A stretch of 64,000 nt of DNA from Leeia oryzae DSM 17879 (GTDB lineage Bacteria > Pseudomonadota > Gammaproteobacteria > Burkholderiales > Leeiaceae), in contig NZ_AQXU01000014.1 of the NCBI RefSeq assembly GCF_000376945.1, positions 62,001-126,000 of the forward strand, written 5' to 3'. A model generated the notes under the pieces. It ran no database searches. It saw nothing but the letters and a program-made list of their open reading frames with translations, and was not told the origin of the DNA. Positions 2,293-11,623 of this stretch are shown here, piece by piece. The first letter of the stretch is position 1. Each line of letters starts with the position of its first letter. Made by a program: the position numbers and the translations under genes.

Positions 2293-3420
2293 TTACAGGC
2301 TCCGGTGAGGGGTAGGTTGCTGCTGTAATGATGGCGGCTGGGCGTGCATGTGCGCCTGATCCGGGTGGTTGTTTGTCATGGGCGGTTTGACCGCATCAGC
2401 AATTTTGATCTGAATATCCTTGAACTCGTCACATTGTCCGTGGATGAGGCCTTTTTCCTGGTTGGTAAACAGGTAGTCGACCTTCTTGGCGCCCATGTCG
2501 TGCGCTTGCTGGGTGATATTGATCATAAGATTGTGCTTTTCTGCCGGATGCAGCGTTGGCAGGTCTTTGTGCATCAAATCATGCACTTGCTGGTACAGGT
2601 GCTGGAGACCTTCGGGCACCGGCGGCAAGTGCGGGGTCTTCTCGCTGGCATGCGCCAGTGCAGTGGGATGGCGCTGCAGGCTGGTAGCGGATGCCTGTTT
2701 GGCCGCGGGTTCTGAATGCGGTTTCTCTTGGTGCGGGGGGGTATTCTCTGCGTGGATGAGGTCCTGAGCGTTAAACACTTGCTTGATGTTGTGGATGCGT
2801 CTGTCGCTATCATCCCGATGTTTAACACCATATTTGGTATGGTCGCGAAAATGCTTGATGTCATCAATATCCAGTGTATCGCTTGCGGAGATGGTTTTAC
2901 CGGTGGTGCTGCTGTGGTAACTCTCGCCTGACACATAGGCGGTAAAACCGGGGCCAAAGGAGCCATATTGGTTTTTATAGTCGATCAGAGCCATAGCCAG
3001 CATGTTGTCCTGGCGGATGGTGCTTGCATGCACCGGATTTTTCTTATCTACGTTACCAATCAACTGTTCCAGGCTATGCATCTGTTTGTCGAATTGCTGT
3101 CTGGAAAAGGTTTCCATCTCTGCCTGCGGGATCTGGCTGAGTTTATGGTTGAGTGCTGAAAGCTGGTGTTTGTCCAGACCGCCATGCTGCGAGAGTGCCT
3201 TGATATCGTGGTCGGTAAAGTCATGTGTTTTCAGAAATTTGCGAGCGTCTGCATGCGCGCCAACATCATATTGTGCCATACCAAAGCTGTAAGTGCTGTT
3301 GGCCTTCTGTGCATAGCTGAACCGGGCGGCCTGCTGCGGGTTAGCTTCATTCAGGGACATCACCTGTTTATAGTCTTCCCAGAGCTTGTCTTGTTGTGCT
3401 TCCGTAAAGTGTTTGCTCAT
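2293..3420 (-). CDS. Putative T4SS-type antibacterial effector: lysozyme-like domain plus XVIPCD-like C-terminus
   Basis: The protein has 375 residues. Residues about 20-60 look like a lysozyme/transglycosylase fold: a candidate catalytic Glu25 (SLNEAN) followed by YSFGMAQYDVG (44-54), resembling the S-x-G-x-x-Q step of lytic enzymes. A Pro/His/Gln-rich linker runs from 222 to 268. Residues 270-347 (GAKKVDYLF, EKGLIHGQCDEF, KIADAVKPP) follow the layout of the XVIPCD secretion signal of Xanthomonadales-type killing T4SS effectors (G-L-x-x-ID-x-V ... F-A-VQG ... AV), and the tail is Gln-rich, also typical. The gene starts 5 bases after an LprI-type periplasmic protein, the expected effector/immunity arrangement. 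No T4SS genes are in the window. Assignment rests on pattern similarity, not on a profile search. Confidence 0.55.
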   Translation of the reverse strand: MSKHFTEAQQDKLWEDYKQVMSLNEANPQQAARFSYAQKANSTYSFGMAQYDVGAHADARKFLKTHDFTDHDIKALSQHGGLDKHQLSALNHKLSQIPQAEMETFSRQQFDKQMHSLEQLIGNVDKKNPVHASTIRQDNMLAMALIDYKNQYGSFGPGFTAYVSGESYHSSTTGKTISASDTLDIDDIKHFRDHTKYGVKHRDDSDRRIHNIKQVFNAQDLIHAENTPPHQEKPHSEPAAKQASATSLQRHPTALAHASEKTPHLPPVPEGLQHLYQQVHDLMHKDLPTLHPAEKHNLMINITQQAHDMGAKKVDYLFTNQEKGLIHGQCDEFKDIQIKIADAVKPPMTNNHPDQAHMHAQPPSLQQQPTPHRSL

Positions 3421-3425
3421 GGGGC

Positions 3426-3836
3426 TTAATCCTGGGTGAAGTAGTCATACAGGTCTTGCAGGTCATGGGCACGCAGGATACTGCGATCCAGTTGGCAGAA
3501 TGCATACTGGATACCTTGATTAAACCCGCTACCAAATGCCTCTGCATTGGCGGAGCAATCTGCCTGCACATAAGCCACCCAGCTGGCTTGCCCGTTGCGA
3601 ACGCCTTTGAGCGCTGTCGGGTTATTTTTTACGACCTTGTTCAGCTTGTTGATGGTGTTCTGCATTTTGCTTTGGTAACGGTTTATTTGCTGCTCAAGGC
3701 AGTTGGCCTGATCATTGCGTCCGCCGCATAGTTTGTCGGCTGTGGGCAGGTTCTGATACGGGGTGTACTCCGCGAAGGACATGGTGGTGGTAGCAAGGCA
3801 AAAGATGCCTGCCAGGATGTGTTTTGAAGTCAGCAT
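3426..3836 (-). CDS. LprI/DUF1311-type periplasmic lysozyme inhibitor, candidate immunity protein
   Basis: A signal peptide covers residues 1-22 (cleavage near SFA-EY). The mature part carries four Cys in the LprI/DUF1311 pattern: two near the start (LCGG, NCLEQQ), one after Q-x-x-W (QASWVAYVQADC) and one near FCQLDRS. LprI-like proteins inhibit lysozyme-type peptidoglycan hydrolases in the periplasm. The gene lies directly upstream of the lysozyme-like effector gene on the same strand with a 5-bp gap, so it is probably co-transcribed and protects against that effector; this pairing is inferred. The ribosome-binding site is weak, and ATGTCA repeats lie 40-70 bases upstream. Confidence 0.65.
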   Translation of the reverse strand: MLTSKHILAGIFCLATTTMSFAEYTPYQNLPTADKLCGGRNDQANCLEQQINRYQSKMQNTINKLNKVVKNNPTALKGVRNGQASWVAYVQADCSANAEAFGSGFNQGIQYAFCQLDRSILRAHDLQDLYDYFTQD

Positions 3837-5936: not shown

Positions 5937-6815
5937 TTACCCCAGCTTTCGCACCCCTTTGCAACCCGGAAACAGGCTGCAACCCCAAAACTGTTTACCG
6001 GCTTGGGCACCCTTGCTGGCGGTGCGTAATACCATCTTGTTATTACAGACCGGGCAGGCTGGCGATTCATCTGTGTTGGCTTGTATTTGCGGAACCACAA
6101 TCTTGGGCATTGGTTTGCCGGCCATAGCCAATACCTTATCCGCCGGGACGAGCTTGATTGATCTGCCTTCCGCAAAATCATGTGCATCTTGTGTGAAACC
6201 ACCTGAGGCAACGACAAACCCTCCAACGGCTCCTTGCGAAGTCATCACGCCAAAGAGCTCACGTACGGTTGCGACACCTACTTTTCTGGTTTTCCAGTGT
6301 TTACACTGAACCAGATAAAGGTCTTTACCCATAGAGAGCCTTAGGTCAACCCCGCCGTCGGGTTGATTGCCACCTTGCAGATCCACCTTATAACCTTGCT
6401 CCCGAAAGAGCGCTGCACAGAGGTGCTCAAATTCTCGCCATGACATGTTGTCCAGCGTCTCTTTGGTTGGGGCACCTTTTAAATGGGTAGAGAGGCTGCT
6501 TTGTTTTTTGCGCTGTATGAGAGACAACAGAGCACCAAGTCCGAATACTGCCGGGATCAGGTATTGTCCGATAGAAACGAAGATGCTGAGTAGCGAGTGG
6601 GTTAGCATGCCGGAAATATCAGGCAGCCCTTTTGCATTGGTTGCCACTGGCGTAGGTATTGCGAGCGTACCTGCATAGTGATGCAGGATAAAGTAGCTCA
6701 ATAGGGTGATGAGCAGGCTGACTTGCCAGGGCAGTTTGATGGCGACAGATAGCAACTCATCCAGTAAGGCGTGGTTTCTTCTTGGCATAAGCAGGGGATA
6801 CGCATGTTTAAACAT
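5937..6815 (-). CDS. Membrane-anchored Mrr-type restriction endonuclease with C-terminal zinc finger
   Basis: Two membrane segments lie at about 28-46 and 70-100. An Mrr-type PD-(D/E)xK domain follows at about 120-235: WREFEHLCAALFREQGY, then GGVDLRL with Asp157 and LVQCKHWK with Gln170/Lys172 as the catalytic D...QxK set. A topoisomerase-type C4 zinc finger ends the protein (C254, C257, C279, C285). Mrr proteins cut modified DNA; a membrane-tethered form could act on incoming DNA, but the substrate is unknown. A degenerate paralogue lies just upstream on the same strand. An in-frame Met at 6787 lacks a better ribosome-binding site, so 6815 is kept. Confidence 0.7.
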   Translation of the reverse strand: MFKHAYPLLMPRRNHALLDELLSVAIKLPWQVSLLITLLSYFILHHYAGTLAIPTPVATNAKGLPDISGMLTHSLLSIFVSIGQYLIPAVFGLGALLSLIQRKKQSSLSTHLKGAPTKETLDNMSWREFEHLCAALFREQGYKVDLQGGNQPDGGVDLRLSMGKDLYLVQCKHWKTRKVGVATVRELFGVMTSQGAVGGFVVASGGFTQDAHDFAEGRSIKLVPADKVLAMAGKPMPKIVVPQIQANTDESPACPVCNNKMVLRTASKGAQAGKQFWGCSLFPGCKGVRKLG

Positions 6816-6847
6816 TCATTCTGGCTTATGACTGTAAAAAATGCCAA

Positions 6848-6866
6848 TGACAATTATCAATTGTCA
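6848..6866 (-). promoter_or_regulatory. Palindrome upstream of Mrr-like gene 1
   Basis: TGACAATT-ATC-AATTGTCA is a perfect 8-bp inverted repeat 33 bases upstream of the start. The surrounding block, 6836-6870, is nearly repeated at 7926-7960 in front of the paralogue, so promoter and gene were duplicated together. Confidence 0.4.
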
Positions 6867-7022
6867 TGAAAGGATGCTGATGTACTTCTTGCGCGATCTG
6901 GTTTTTTTGATCTGGAAGGAAGCTGAATTAGTACGTTTCTGGTGGCTATCACGTTGTGCCATCCACCAGAAACTGTGACAAAGCGAATGTTATTGTGTAA
7001 TTGGCCTGGTTTAACGTGCGTG

Positions 7023-7874
7023 TCACGGTTGCTTTTGGCCAGTAACCAGCATCAGTTTTCGTGTGTCTGGTGCTGCATCTTCTGTACCGTTGCAGGTAGA
7101 GAACTTGCCACATTGCCAGCATGATCCCGCCACGTGGGTGGCATTGCTGTTTGTTTCGGTAGAAATTGGCGGGATATAGGCAGGGCATATATAAGGGGTA
7201 GAGACCATGGCTGACTGGTTGGGATCTGGTACACGCTTTCCGACCATGCCAAACACTTCGCTGACAGGCGTCAGCTCGATATGTCGGCTTCTGGCCAGGG
7301 TTTTGGCCAGCGGCGTAAATTGCCCCAGCGTGACAATAAACCCGCCAATAGCGCCCGCTGCGGTCATGGCGTCTGAAAGTTCGTTAACTTCAGCCAGATC
7401 AATCTGGCGGGTTTTCCAGTGCTTGCTTTGCGCAAGATACACATTTGTCCCTTTTTTTAACCTGAGTGTGGTTCCTTCATTTGTATTGGTTTCTTCTGGT
7501 GCACAGACCTGATAGCCCCGGCTGTTGTAAAGCGAGGTACACATGTGCTCGAAAACCCACCAGGATAATTTACTCAGCGCCTCCTTGTCTGGCGATCTGG
7601 TCGCCATTGGCAGGGAAACCGCCTTGGCTGGCTCCTTTGCCCGCAGGAGCAAAGCGACTGCCTGAATGACAAAGAAGGCAGGTACCAGGTACTGGCCCAT
7701 ATAGGCCGTTTGTTGCCAGAACGTGGCAGGCGTCGTATCTGATGGTACTACTGCCAGATAATAGCGATGCAGCATGAAGTAGCTGACCATTGCAATGATG
7801 AGGCTGGATAGCCAAGCTTGTCTGGCGAGATACCGGATTACCGCGTAAAGACGTGAATGAGACGTTATGATCAT
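7023..7874 (-). CDS. Degenerate paralogue of the membrane-anchored Mrr-type endonuclease
   Basis: The 283-residue product aligns along its length with the neighbour at 5937-6815. It has two membrane segments (about 20-38 and 55-77) and the Mrr core (WWVFEHMCTSLYNSRGY, AQSKHWKTR, GAIGGFIVT). The catalytic Asp is replaced (EGTTLRL instead of GGVDLRL, Thr136) and QCK has become QSK, so nuclease activity is doubtful. The C-terminal zinc finger is reduced to a few scattered Cys. It could be a regulatory or decoy partner of the active copy, or a gene in decay; the intact frame favours retained function. Confidence 0.6.
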   Translation of the reverse strand: MIITSHSRLYAVIRYLARQAWLSSLIIAMVSYFMLHRYYLAVVPSDTTPATFWQQTAYMGQYLVPAFFVIQAVALLLRAKEPAKAVSLPMATRSPDKEALSKLSWWVFEHMCTSLYNSRGYQVCAPEETNTNEGTTLRLKKGTNVYLAQSKHWKTRQIDLAEVNELSDAMTAAGAIGGFIVTLGQFTPLAKTLARSRHIELTPVSEVFGMVGKRVPDPNQSAMVSTPYICPAYIPPISTETNSNATHVAGSCWQCGKFSTCNGTEDAAPDTRKLMLVTGQKQP

Positions 7875-7895: not shown

Positions 7896-7956
7896 ATGAC
7901 ATTTTCATTTTGGTACATGTTTTGAAAAAATGCCAATAGCAATTTTCAAATGTCAT
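7896..7956 (-). promoter_or_regulatory. ATGTCAT-type sites upstream of Mrr-like gene 2
   Basis: ATGACATTTT at 7896-7905 and AAATGTCAT at 7948-7956 are oppositely oriented copies of the element also seen at 3877-3907, 6859-6867 and 10101-10107. The second lies inside the block shared with the promoter of the Mrr paralogue. Confidence 0.3.
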
Positions 7957-8010
7957 AAAAAAATGATACATGCGGTGCTATCGAATGACAGATCTGGTGT
8001 GTGGGTGAAA

Positions 8011-9429
8011 TTACATATTGCGAACTGGTGCTGCATGCGCAGGGGAGGATGGCTTCTGCTGAGGTTCTACAGGTTGCACTGGCTCTGTGACGGGTTTAAT
8101 CGCATCTTCCACTTTTAGCCGAATATCCTTGAACTCATCACACTGGCCTAAAATGAGCCCCTTTTCAGGATTGAGAATCAGGTAGTCAATTTTGTTGGCT
8201 CTCAGGTCGTACGCCTGTTGAGCAACATGGGTGATCAGATTATGTTTTTCAGCCTCGGATAATACAGTCAGGGATTTGCCTATCTGAGTATCTACTTGTT
8301 TATAAAGGGGTTTCAAATAGTCAGGGACATCCGACTCAAACTGTTTTTTGTCACGAGTCAGTATCTGTTCCACATCAAGTGCAGAAGTATTGGTTTTTAA
8401 ACCGAATGTGGTAAAGCTATCTTGTGTTGTTTTGTCCCAACCTTGATATTTGCTCAGAGTGGAAAAATCGGTGACAACTGCAGTGATTTGGTTTTCTGAG
8501 TGGAGGATTCTGCCTGCATCGGGGCCATGTTGTGGATCAGGATGCACACCCAATGCCCGTTTCTGGAATTCAAGATTACCGGCTTCGATAGCTTTGTCAG
8601 GGTCATTGCGGTAATCGGCAAAACCTGTGCGATGGATGAATTTGTTGGCCAGATAATTGCCTGTTAGTGAGCCAGATAGGCTTTCAAGGGGGGTGTTGGT
8701 AATCACCTCTTTGAGTGGTGCCAGCTTTGGGTCCTGCATAATCTCGATAAGATGATATACACCGGTTTTTGTGTTGGCATACGCATCATGAAAGTAATGT
8801 GGCTGTTGCTGAACCCAACTATCTAATTGTGAAATTGTCTGCACATGACCATGGTTGATATCCTGGATTAGATGATGGGCAACAGCAGGATTTTGGTTGT
8901 ATACCTTCATAACTGCAGATTCAAATATCATTCTGTCTTCAACTGTTGCGTGTTGCAACGCTGGGCTGTTGTGAATGGCTTGAGCTTGATATGTCAATTT
9001 ATCAATATGTGTAATGGCTCCATTATTGATGTATTGTTGGCCGCTATCTGATTTGAGAAATGAATCCAATTTTAAATGGGTATCGTGATTCAAGGGTTTT
9101 CCATGCTGTGCTCTTATTTCGTTACCGTTTCGTTTTAGGTCTGTGATGGCTTGATGTTCTGCCTGAGATGATAAGGGTATTGCATGCCCGTTACGTGCCC
9201 ACGTTTGATATGCGGCAATCAACGGGGCTACCTCGTCATTTCTCTGCCCAAGATCGACTTGTAACAATCCTACCGAATAGCCACTGTTGTCGGCAGGGTG
9301 CAAGCTATGTCCTGCCAAGAGCTGTGAAGGCATCATGCCTGCTAGTGCAAGCGAGTAGGAGGCGTATCAACCTTCTGTGCCATATCCGATAGCAAGTAGT
9401 GCTTGTAGTAGTTCTTTGGATGAGTTCAT
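8011..9429 (-). pseudogene. Second lysozyme-like / XVIPCD-like effector, interrupted by an in-frame TGA
   Basis: The natural start appears to be ATG 9429, which overlaps the upstream stop codon as ATGA. Twenty codons later a TGA (9369-9367) breaks the frame, which then stays open to 8011. The next in-frame ATG is 9336 (441 residues). The lost N-terminus holds GYGTEG, whose Glu19 aligns with the presumed catalytic Glu of the first effector; after the stop come YSVGLLQVDLGQR and a long helical region. The last 100 residues (KIDYLILNPEKG, LGQCDEF, KVEDAIKP, then a Pro/Gln-rich tail) match the secretion-signal-like domain of effector 1. Internal initiation at 9336 would give a protein without that Glu. 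A sequencing error remains possible. Confidence 0.6.
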
Positions 9430-10049
9430 GGGCTTACCAATTGCAAGTGGTTGCAGTTAATAAGATCATCGATGCGGACCTTGATGACACTATTGAGACT
9501 AGCGTCAATCAGATAGGTAACGCCAGATGCTGAATTGAGGGTTGAGCCAGTGATTTCTAGTGGGCCTCTGGAGGACAAGATGGGGTGGAGCTCAATTCCG
9601 TTTGTTGAGTTCTGCTCTGTATCATGCTTGATCAGACAGCTGTAATGGTCGTGGCTGCAGACGTCGATTATGTATGAAATGACTTTTCCGAATGTATTTT
9701 TCTCGAAACCGCCCGGGGCTTTATAAAACAGATGCCCCTGGTTGACGATGTGTTTCCCGTGAGGACCTATCAGGTAGCGTATCGTGCTATCTGTCGTAAA
9801 GCGGGAGATCTTTAGCTTGTGTACGGTATTTGTATCTGTAAACCAGGCGGAATTGTCATTTTTGACCAGGATGGCCAAATCTTTTTGTTGATTGGGGATA
9901 ACGACTTCGTTGGCTTCGAACGGATAAATGATTGCCTCGCAGGCCTTAGGGGCTGCGCTGAGCGTAGTTGATAGTATTGCCAGTGTTGCGAGAGCCAGAA
10001 GCTGTAAATGAGGCTTGGTATGTTGTGTGGCGAAGGCGGTTTTGTACAT
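9426..10049 (-). CDS. Secreted periplasmic protein, candidate immunity partner of effector 2
   Basis: An extended N-terminus and hydrophobic core (LQLLALATLAILSTTLSAAP) form a signal peptide of about 33 residues. The mature 170-residue protein has several Cys (KACEA, DVCSHDHYSCL, NCNHL) that could form disulfides, and no family was recognised. Its stop overlaps the ATG of the effector gene (ATGA), so translation is coupled. By analogy with the LprI-type gene in front of effector 1, it is a likely immunity protein; this is inference from position only. Confidence 0.5.
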   Translation of the reverse strand: MYKTAFATQHTKPHLQLLALATLAILSTTLSAAPKACEAIIYPFEANEVVIPNQQKDLAILVKNDNSAWFTDTNTVHKLKISRFTTDSTIRYLIGPHGKHIVNQGHLFYKAPGGFEKNTFGKVISYIIDVCSHDHYSCLIKHDTEQNSTNGIELHPILSSRGPLEITGSTLNSASGVTYLIDASLNSVIKVRIDDLINCNHLQLVSP

Positions 10050-10402
10050 TTTATGATATTTTCATATTGGGTGTGCGGATATTACATGCGGGGTAATGTG
10101 AATGTCAAAGACATATTTTGAGGGTGTTTTACGTCATGTTTGATGGATGTTGCTACGCTCCATCTACCCTAAGGGTTACATTTGGATTGCAAATGATGTG
10201 TAGAAAATGGGGACCATTGATCCAATTGGTAGTTGTTCAGCTTCAGTTTTAGTTTTTGTTTCAACATGGCGTGCGCTGAGGCAGGGGGGCGTAGCCATAT
10301 CCACCAGACGGTAGTGGAAGGGCAGGTATATTGCGCGGGCAATGCGAATGAGATGGTGGTTACGTCAGTTTCTGCTTTGACGTAACCATCCGGAGAGCCT
10401 GA
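10050..10402. other. Intergenic region at the right edge of the accessory segment
   Basis: No gene is supported. It contains AATGTCA at 10101-10107, related to the motif upstream of neighbouring accessory genes, a small dyad GATGGA/TCCATC at 10142-10164, and the hairpin after mdtH. Confidence 0.5.
10357..10388 (-). terminator. Hairpin downstream of mdtH
   Basis: TGGTTACGTCA and its complement TGACGTAACCA are separated by 10 bases, 15 bases after the mdtH stop on the minus strand. No strong T-run is visible. Confidence 0.45.
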
Positions 10403-11623
10403 TCAGGCTTGAGAGCGGAGCATGCGCGGGGCGGGCGGGTTGATGGCGCGATTGAGGTAGGCGAGGCAGACAATCCCCATGCTGGCGATGCCGATCCACC
10501 CGAGGGATGGATGCCCCCAGGCGAGCGTTGTCTGGTATAGCCAGCCGCTGATCATGTAACCAAGCCCGCCGGAAATGGCCATGCCGATGCTGTTAAAGCC
10601 GAGGTAGGCGCCGCGCAGGCGCGGGTCCAGGCGTCTGGCGGTGGATTCCTGCAGGGCGGGGTCGCCGATAACCACACCAACGGTAAAGATGGCGAGGGAT
10701 GTCCACAATAGGGCTGGCGTGCTGGCCATGCTGGTCAGCAACAGGCCGAGGATCATGGCGGACATGGCTGTTTGCAGACGGGATTCGCTGGACCATCTGC
10801 CGACACTCCAGTGGGCAATCGGGTATTGCAGACTGAGCGTGAGGATGGCTTCGAGCGTGTACATCCAGGCGACGGATGACTGGTGCCCGGTAATGCGTGT
10901 GACCAGCAGCGGCAGGGTGGACATCATTTGCAGCCACAGTAGCCAAAAGCCGGACCCGGCCAGCGAGAACATCACGAAATTCTTGTCTTTCCAGACCTGA
11001 CGCAAACCGGCCAGCAGGTCGTCTTGCCGGACACCGACACGGAAGGGTGGCAACAGCCACAGTGTCAGGATCGAAGCAATAAAGAAACTGCATGCACCGG
11101 CGTAAGCGACCCAGCGGAAATCGAAGGCGAGCAGCCATCCGCCCAGTGCTGCGCCACTACAGGTACCTACGGTACCAAGTGTGCCCAGCAGGGCATAGAA
11201 ATGCGCACGTTCTTTAGAACGGGTCAGCTTGACGATGACTGCACTCTTGGGCGAATCAAACAAGGCGCCACCCAGCCCGGCGACCAGGCAGGAGAGCATG
11301 AGCAGGGAGATGGAGTCTGCATGGGCAAAAATCAGGAAAGAAATACCACGTAGCGCCAGCCCGGCCGTAATCAGCGGTTTGGCGCCGATCCGGTCTGCAT
11401 AGGCCCCTGCCAGCACGGTGAGCCCTTGCTGGGTGAAGGTGCGCAAGGCCAGGCCCGCTGTGACCAGCGCGGCGGACCAGCCCAGATTATCGACATAATG
11501 GACGGTGATCATCGGGAACAGCAGATAGAAACCGATGATGACCAAGAGGTTATCGATCAGGACCAGCCATTGGGCGCGCTTGCGGACCAGGTTGGGTAGG
11601 TTGGTATTGGGTTCTTGCTTCAT
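10403..11623 (-). CDS. mdtH: MdtH-type MFS multidrug exporter
   Basis: This 406-residue inner-membrane protein has the 12-helix MFS pattern. Helix 1 (LIDNLLVIIGFYLLFP), GAYADRIGAKP at the helix 2-3 loop and GLGGALFDSPKSAVIVKL are close to E. coli MdtH, which exports fluoroquinolones by proton antiport. A LysR gene is divergently transcribed 98 bases away and probably controls it. Confidence 0.8.
   Translation of the reverse strand: MKQEPNTNLPNLVRKRAQWLVLIDNLLVIIGFYLLFPMITVHYVDNLGWSAALVTAGLALRTFTQQGLTVLAGAYADRIGAKPLITAGLALRGISFLIFAHADSISLLMLSCLVAGLGGALFDSPKSAVIVKLTRSKERAHFYALLGTLGTVGTCSGAALGGWLLAFDFRWVAYAGACSFFIASILTLWLLPPFRVGVRQDDLLAGLRQVWKDKNFVMFSLAGSGFWLLWLQMMSTLPLLVTRITGHQSSVAWMYTLEAILTLSLQYPIAHWSVGRWSSESRLQTAMSAMILGLLLTSMASTPALLWTSLAIFTVGVVIGDPALQESTARRLDPRLRGAYLGFNSIGMAISGGLGYMISGWLYQTTLAWGHPSLGWIGIASMGIVCLAYLNRAINPPAPRMLRSQA

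Follow-up and report, generated by a model that had tools for sequence, protein, structure and literature searches.

A predicted membrane-anchored Mrr-type nuclease and its adjacent degenerate paralogue in Leeia oryzae

Two adjacent Mrr genes and their surroundings

The window considered here, a stretch of 64,000 nucleotides from Leeia oryzae DSM 17879, contains two adjacent genes, designated A and B, whose frames are both open over their entire length, as claimed in an earlier note on this DNA (Table 1). Also in line with that note, both products carry two N-terminal hydrophobic segments, modelled as helices, ahead of an Mrr domain. In A, these segments span about residues 21-39 and 75-93 and are followed by the Mrr_cat domain (PF04471; E=8.9e-31 in a Pfam scan) and a C4 zinc ribbon, an order that places the protein in a family with 2TM-Mrr-zinc-ribbon architecture. 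A retains the full E/D/QCK catalytic set (E130, D157 and Q170-C171-K172; D157 and QCK as in the earlier note) and the cysteines (C254/C257/C279/C285) of the C4 zinc finger named there, with the match to the topoisomerase-type C4 zinc ribbon (3.3e-7, 30.4 bits) lying slightly below the Pfam cut-off of 32. The gene as called comprises 292 codons. Among 49 aligned sequences, the first methionine is nearly invariant at the position of M10, and translation of A probably starts at this residue (position 6788), yielding a protein of 283 aa, the same length as B. The AlphaFold2 model of A, based on a 49-row alignment, has a mean pLDDT of 87.3. In both proteins, positively charged residues are found before the first and after the second hydrophobic stretch, which suggests that the Mrr domain is cytoplasmic. 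It is very likely that A is a membrane nuclease.

The product of B contains hydrophobic segments at about residues 25-43 and 59-77 and matches Mrr_cat with E=4.4e-14 in the same scan. It keeps E109, Q149 and K151 and lacks the catalytic Asp and QCK expected of an active family member: Thr136 replaces the Asp, and QSK (Q149-S-K151) replaces QCK. The GGN-PDGGVD loop is rewritten (D153 to N, G154 to E and D157 to T in A numbering), and Thr at the Asp position occurs in B alone among 132 aligned ORFs, 102 of which, A included, have the full set of E, D, QCK and four Cys. The zinc finger, too, is lost, as the earlier note had stated along with the Thr and QSK replacements: the four zinc positions read C/Y/C/C, with Tyr in place of the second Cys and three of the four cysteines remaining, the Pfam scan returned no zinc match, and the tail from residue 221 onwards is modelled as disorder (pLDDT 43-46). 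Moreover, B keeps 27 and loses 28 of the 55 columns that are invariant in ten family members. Its AlphaFold2 model, again from a 49-row alignment (mean pLDDT 73.9), is confident for the TM pair and most of the Mrr core, with pLDDT blocks of 77-97 over residues 101-210. From the residue losses, we infer that B is catalytically inactive.

Table 1. Coordinates of the features at the A/B locus, in window positions.
Feature	Position	Strand	Basis or description
Gene A, membrane-anchored Mrr-type nuclease (predicted)	5937..6815	minus	Open reading frame, Pfam, alignment, model
A Q170-C-K172 codons	6300-6308	minus	Computed by hand from frame
Codon of A Asp157 (catalytic carboxylate, predicted)	6345..6347	minus	Computed by hand from frame
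Upstream block of A	6815..6876	minus	Palindrome, then TTGGCA-18-CAGAAT promoter-like site
Perfect 9-3-9 palindrome in the A block	6847-6867	minus	ATGACAATT-GAT-AATTGTCAT
18-nt inverted repeat between B and A	6935..6973	none	Arms 83% complementary, 3 nt apart
Gene B, paralogue of A (2 TM + Mrr fold, 283 codons)	7023..7874	minus	Open frame, Pfam, alignment, model
B Q149-S-K151 codons	7422-7430	minus	Computed by hand from frame
Codon of B Thr136	7467..7469	minus	Computed by hand from frame
Upstream block of B	7904..7965	minus	Imperfect, decayed palindrome; TTGGCA-18-CAAAAT at homologous place

Each gene is preceded by its own copy of a 62-nt upstream block. The two copies are 76% identical and lie 26 bases (A, measured from M10) and 29 bases (B) from the respective start. 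When the regions of A and B were compared in ungapped 32-mers, the 15 best matches all fell within this block (28/32 for the best), which has been retained while the silent sites were randomised. Because each gene has its own block, A and B look separately promoted, and an A-B operon is not favoured. A pattern derived from both blocks, with up to three mismatches allowed, had no third match in the 3.79-Mb genome; the two matches obtained are its source sites and exist by construction. A wide regulon was thus not found in this genome. Promoter-like sites were not in excess (4, compared with 3.8 in shuffles), and neither was a looser half-site pattern within the window (31, compared with 24.6 expected). 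The inverted repeat between the two genes is a possible terminator of B; a terminator scan did not list it.

The window begins (1-585) with the end of a gene for a 584-aa NACHT ATPase (L175:10832-12586, plus strand), which lies about 5.3 kb from A, follows two genes resembling a ribonucleotide reductase pair, matches Pfam NACHT at its cut-off (26.7 bits) and gave no PADLOC match. A minus-strand gene for a FliD C-terminal-like protein (938-1951; PF07195, 2e-11) is situated between the NACHT gene and two effector-like genes. The latter, also on the minus strand (2293-3420 and 8011-9336), encode otherwise different proteins with a common 79-aa C-terminal region (57% identical), and the first of them adjoins the gene of an LprI-like protein (3426-3836). 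This pattern recalls the arrangement of secreted bacterial-killing effectors that have a common C-terminal signal and an immunity protein.

Divergence and maintenance of the second copy

A and B, with 34% identity over 279 aligned columns, form sisters in a tree of 29 selected rows (support 99/92), making B a member of the 2TM-Mrr-zinc-ribbon family by descent. The same relationship was recovered in a quick 88-row tree (support 88). The extreme length of the B branch (3.29 in the quick tree, compared with 0.26 for A) leaves some doubt about the placement in either tree. In addition, the two proteins have 14 family-rare residues in common, with the next best member reaching 9.

Identity between the two genes amounts to 0.53, 0.60 and 0.31 at the first, second and third codon position, respectively, a signal that derives partly from A's own constraint. 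Silent sites are saturated (pS 0.82, pN 0.43), and since this applies to every pair computed, no numerical value is given for dN/dS. When A was mutated neutrally to 36% identity, stop codons arose in 300 of 300 runs, with at least three at the end; B has thus most likely been translated and selected for much of its divergence. Its open frame at saturating divergence, together with these simulations, shows that it is not a fresh pseudogene and disfavours a recent pseudogenization, with partial relaxation still being likely. The codon-usage scores of the two genes (0.057 and 0.046) fall below those of all 34 other window ORFs of at least 250 aa, whose minimum of 0.088 was obtained with a codon table trained on these same ORFs, and may be read as a sign of foreign origin or unusual composition. 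For both genes, the own frame nevertheless scores best of the six. Within B, the core is the strongest part (0.129) and the tail resembles non-coding sequence (-0.078), which we read as a maintained core and a relaxed tail. Considering also the very long branch and the 28 lost invariant columns, partial relaxation of B is real. Still, B is likely to be a retained pseudo-nuclease, and the open frame, the neutral simulations and the shared upstream block jointly suggest that it is old and probably co-regulated.

Distribution of the family and losses in other lineages

The family of A is large, occurs mainly in Beta- and Gammaproteobacteria, on chromosomes as well as plasmids, and is annotated only as 'restriction endonuclease'. 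A query of genome_contigs with the alignment of A yielded at least 561 confirmed related stretches, some of them partial, the best 80 of which were kept. Any match to A was found in 77 of 250 genomes of the order, many of them to the domain alone, and a relative was present in one record of the phage collection. Among the matches listed, the copies from Azospira, Sulfuricystis and Pseudogulbenkiania are 47-54% identical to A, with those of Pseudogulbenkiania being the nearest outside relatives (52-54%). For the relative from Pseudogulbenkiania subflava, the match extends over L077:6001-6844 (plus strand), whereas the ORF begins no earlier than 6185, possibly reflecting a broken start or frame.

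No partner gene was common to 11 plasmid regions containing relatives of A, and no consistent defence setting emerged from them. In two regions with similar neighbours, the gene lies next to a helicase/methyltransferase cassette and a toxin-antitoxin pair, and toxin-antitoxin genes are found in several further ones. An N-6 DNA methylase and an Abi-family gene each occur in one flank, and 4 of the 11 regions include an HU-family gene in the flank. The Azospira and Sulfuricystis plasmids have neighbours in common, including a rhomboid protease. The literature searched contained no account of a membrane-located Mrr nuclease accompanied by a dead paralogue, and as far as these searches show, the family is common but uncharacterised.

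The pairing of A and B is not a general property of this family. No orthologue of B was detected in the 398 other genomes of the order, and B is known from a single genome. Matches to B were obtained in 55 of 399 genomes, its own included; in the remaining genomes, the best of these matches, at 31-32% identity, were to relatives of A whose catalytic set is intact, and viral_contigs contained no relative of B. The two other genomes of the genus, from sister species, have neither gene. One of them contains a distant domain match (37%) and has conserved the radical-SAM, MFS and LysR genes that flank the locus, while the A/B site itself is occupied by unrelated genes; in the other, MFS and LysR are the only flanking genes conserved. 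We also inspected 87 loci, composed of the best 80 of the at least 561 genome_contigs relatives and seven from the search of the order genomes with B, within fetched flanks of at most 6 kb and often less. A second profile match was present at eight of them and represented a clear family copy at two. The second copy at L108 has intact residues and ends at the locus edge. At L130, in a Thiobacillus MAG, a second, partly altered copy (9773-10627, plus strand) is located about 4 kb from the intact one, with His replacing the Gln and Gly in place of the first Asp of DGG. The second match at L133 belongs to a differently built protein of 519 aa. A conserved two-gene system is thus rejected for the genomes seen. 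What holds of the proposed active/inactive membrane pair is the adjacency of an apparently active and an apparently inactive paralogue with a shared upstream block. The note had named single-copy relatives with scattered pseudogenes of the other copy as evidence against its idea; single-copy relatives were found, whereas the scattered pseudogenes were not seen.

Catalytic decay is found in other Mrr lineages as well. In one genus (g21), two genomes contain neighbouring copies, each of them in frame and each damaged: the first keeps the Asp and has lost the Lys and the ribbon, and in the second, which retains the ribbon, a Glu aligns with the Asp and the Lys is lost. One copy without the Lys is present in a third g21 genome. 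Both members of the pair, which is alike in the two species (L014 and L020), contain predicted TM segments, and in G022 the pair lies upstream of a DUF808 gene. In another genus (g38), four genomes each have one copy in which Asn replaces the Asp and His the Gln, and one of these copies also lacks the Lys; the four proteins (L015, L016, L021 and L023) have hydrophobic N-termini and no zinc ribbon. All four damaged g21 and g38 proteins examined still match Mrr_cat strongly. Between species, pN is 0.25 and 0.39 for the g21 copies and 0.26 and 0.40 for g38, at saturated silent sites (pS 0.77-0.81), and these proteins appear to be kept by selection without a full catalytic set. They group apart from A and B in the quick tree, so that the losses look independent. 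Retention of catalytically damaged Mrr proteins in an independent lineage indicates that such decay recurs. New at the present locus is the combination of an apparently active copy with a long-retained, apparently dead one and a duplicated upstream block, within a common family.

Possible roles of the pair and relation to known systems

The best explanation of the locus as a whole, which we put forward tentatively, is a tethered nuclease, A, whose activity is set by a pseudo-nuclease partner, B. A would be an Mrr/type IV-like DNA endonuclease tethered to the inner membrane, whose cytoplasmic domain may cut incoming foreign DNA at the membrane and whose tether may keep it off the chromosome. 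Both of these properties are suggested by analogy with SNIPE (PD-lambda-1), a membrane-bound nuclease that cuts phage DNA during injection, becomes toxic without its TM region and is prevented by the tether from self-cutting (PMC13190303). B would have been born by duplication of A together with its promoter and, deprived of its metal-binding Asp and its zinc ribbon, would have been retained as a pseudo-nuclease, co-expressed with A from the duplicated promoter. Through its TM pair and Mrr fold, it would most likely either join A in mixed oligomers or compete with it for the same DNA or partner, and would in this way set the activity of A. Taken by itself, modulation of A by B is quite possible without being probable. 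It is tempting to speculate that the inner-membrane Mrr family serves as a DNA-entry barrier and has repeatedly spawned dead paralogues as dominant-negative or sensory subunits, which would amount to a pseudo-nuclease switch at the membrane, with A and B and their duplicated putative operator as the clearest case found, but this broader idea is doubtful. Dead peptidases and cyclases are discussed as possible dominant-negative regulators in conflict systems (PMC7159879).

B might instead act independently of A, as a non-catalytic membrane pseudo-nuclease that binds DNA or protein and blocks or senses incoming DNA, for which Kiwa, reported to bind DNA without cleaving it, offers a precedent of non-cutting membrane defence (PMC12904381). 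Apparently dead, in-frame relatives with no intact copy within 1.5-kb flanks are indeed found in the four g38 genomes, in G218 (Lys lost) and in the g21 pair. However, several of these genomes have further Mrr-domain matches elsewhere, and the adjacency of B to A and the shared upstream block fit joint action better, making independence rather unlikely. Less likely again is that B is a duplicate in slow decay, in which a long period of constraint was recently relaxed and the frame is intact by short-term luck. The very long branch, the lost half of the family-invariant positions (28/55), the disordered, non-coding-like tail and the restriction to one genome would suit such a course, whereas neutral drift gave stops in every simulation where B has neither stop nor frameshift, and both the coding signal of its core and its upstream block are retained.

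With regard to the target, A, with or without B, could act on conjugative DNA or in plasmid-borne exclusion rather than against phages. Some match to A was obtained in 409 plasmid records, of which 203 are typed as conjugative and 122 as mobilizable, and one relative, on an Aeromonas plasmid (L183:5947-6741, plus strand), immediately follows traN within a transfer region. This role appears quite improbable, given that only 64 of the 409 records have matches covering at least 80% of A, that relatives are also common outside plasmids and that the copy in the window resides among chromosomal-looking genes, with no transfer gene recognised among the neighbours looked at. PD-(D/E)XK enzymes are known for migrating ligands, and B, which keeps E109, Q149 and K151, could still be a nuclease with a migrated carboxylate (e.g. 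Glu134 or Glu109), reminiscent of the Glu in the second g21 copies, although the Lys is lost there; its rewritten loop, with a Thr seen in no other of the 132 ORFs, renders this highly improbable.

The preferred reading, a tethered nuclease with a modulating partner, can be compared with several known systems. Within the 2TM-Mrr-zinc-ribbon family, A agrees with its relatives in architecture, catalytic set and likely start, and phrog_33422 matches the TM and Mrr part; these relatives are intact and mostly without a second copy in the fetched flanks, whereas B is a degenerate paralogue. MspJI heads the PDB matches of either model, and both lists also contain AspBHI, at low TM-scores (0.2-0.33) that reflect the match of one domain alone. 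Like these modification-dependent endonucleases and E. coli Mrr, A has a D...QxK active site. The three enzymes are soluble and have separate recognition domains, in place of which A carries a membrane anchor and a zinc ribbon. NA-iREase1 (PF22722), a NACHT-associated inactive restriction endonuclease family, scores 33.2 bits for A and 23 for B at a cut-off of 27, but Mrr_cat is far stronger for both, and neither protein is fused to NACHT. Alignments to Zorya ZorD and PDC-S02 (PADLOC) are partial and confined to the Mrr part, and A, with 292 aa, has no helicase part. SNIPE, described only recently (2026), is likewise an inner-membrane nuclease with a cytoplasmic catalytic domain, for which the available text mentions no pseudo-enzyme partner (PMC13190303). 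It is a GIY-YIG nuclease with DUF4041, and neither domain was detected in A or B in a Pfam scan to E 0.1. Should A prove to be an enzyme of this kind with an unrelated catalytic fold, a function could be assigned to a very common 'restriction endonuclease' annotation, and B would provide a natural dead subunit for testing how membrane nucleases are restrained.
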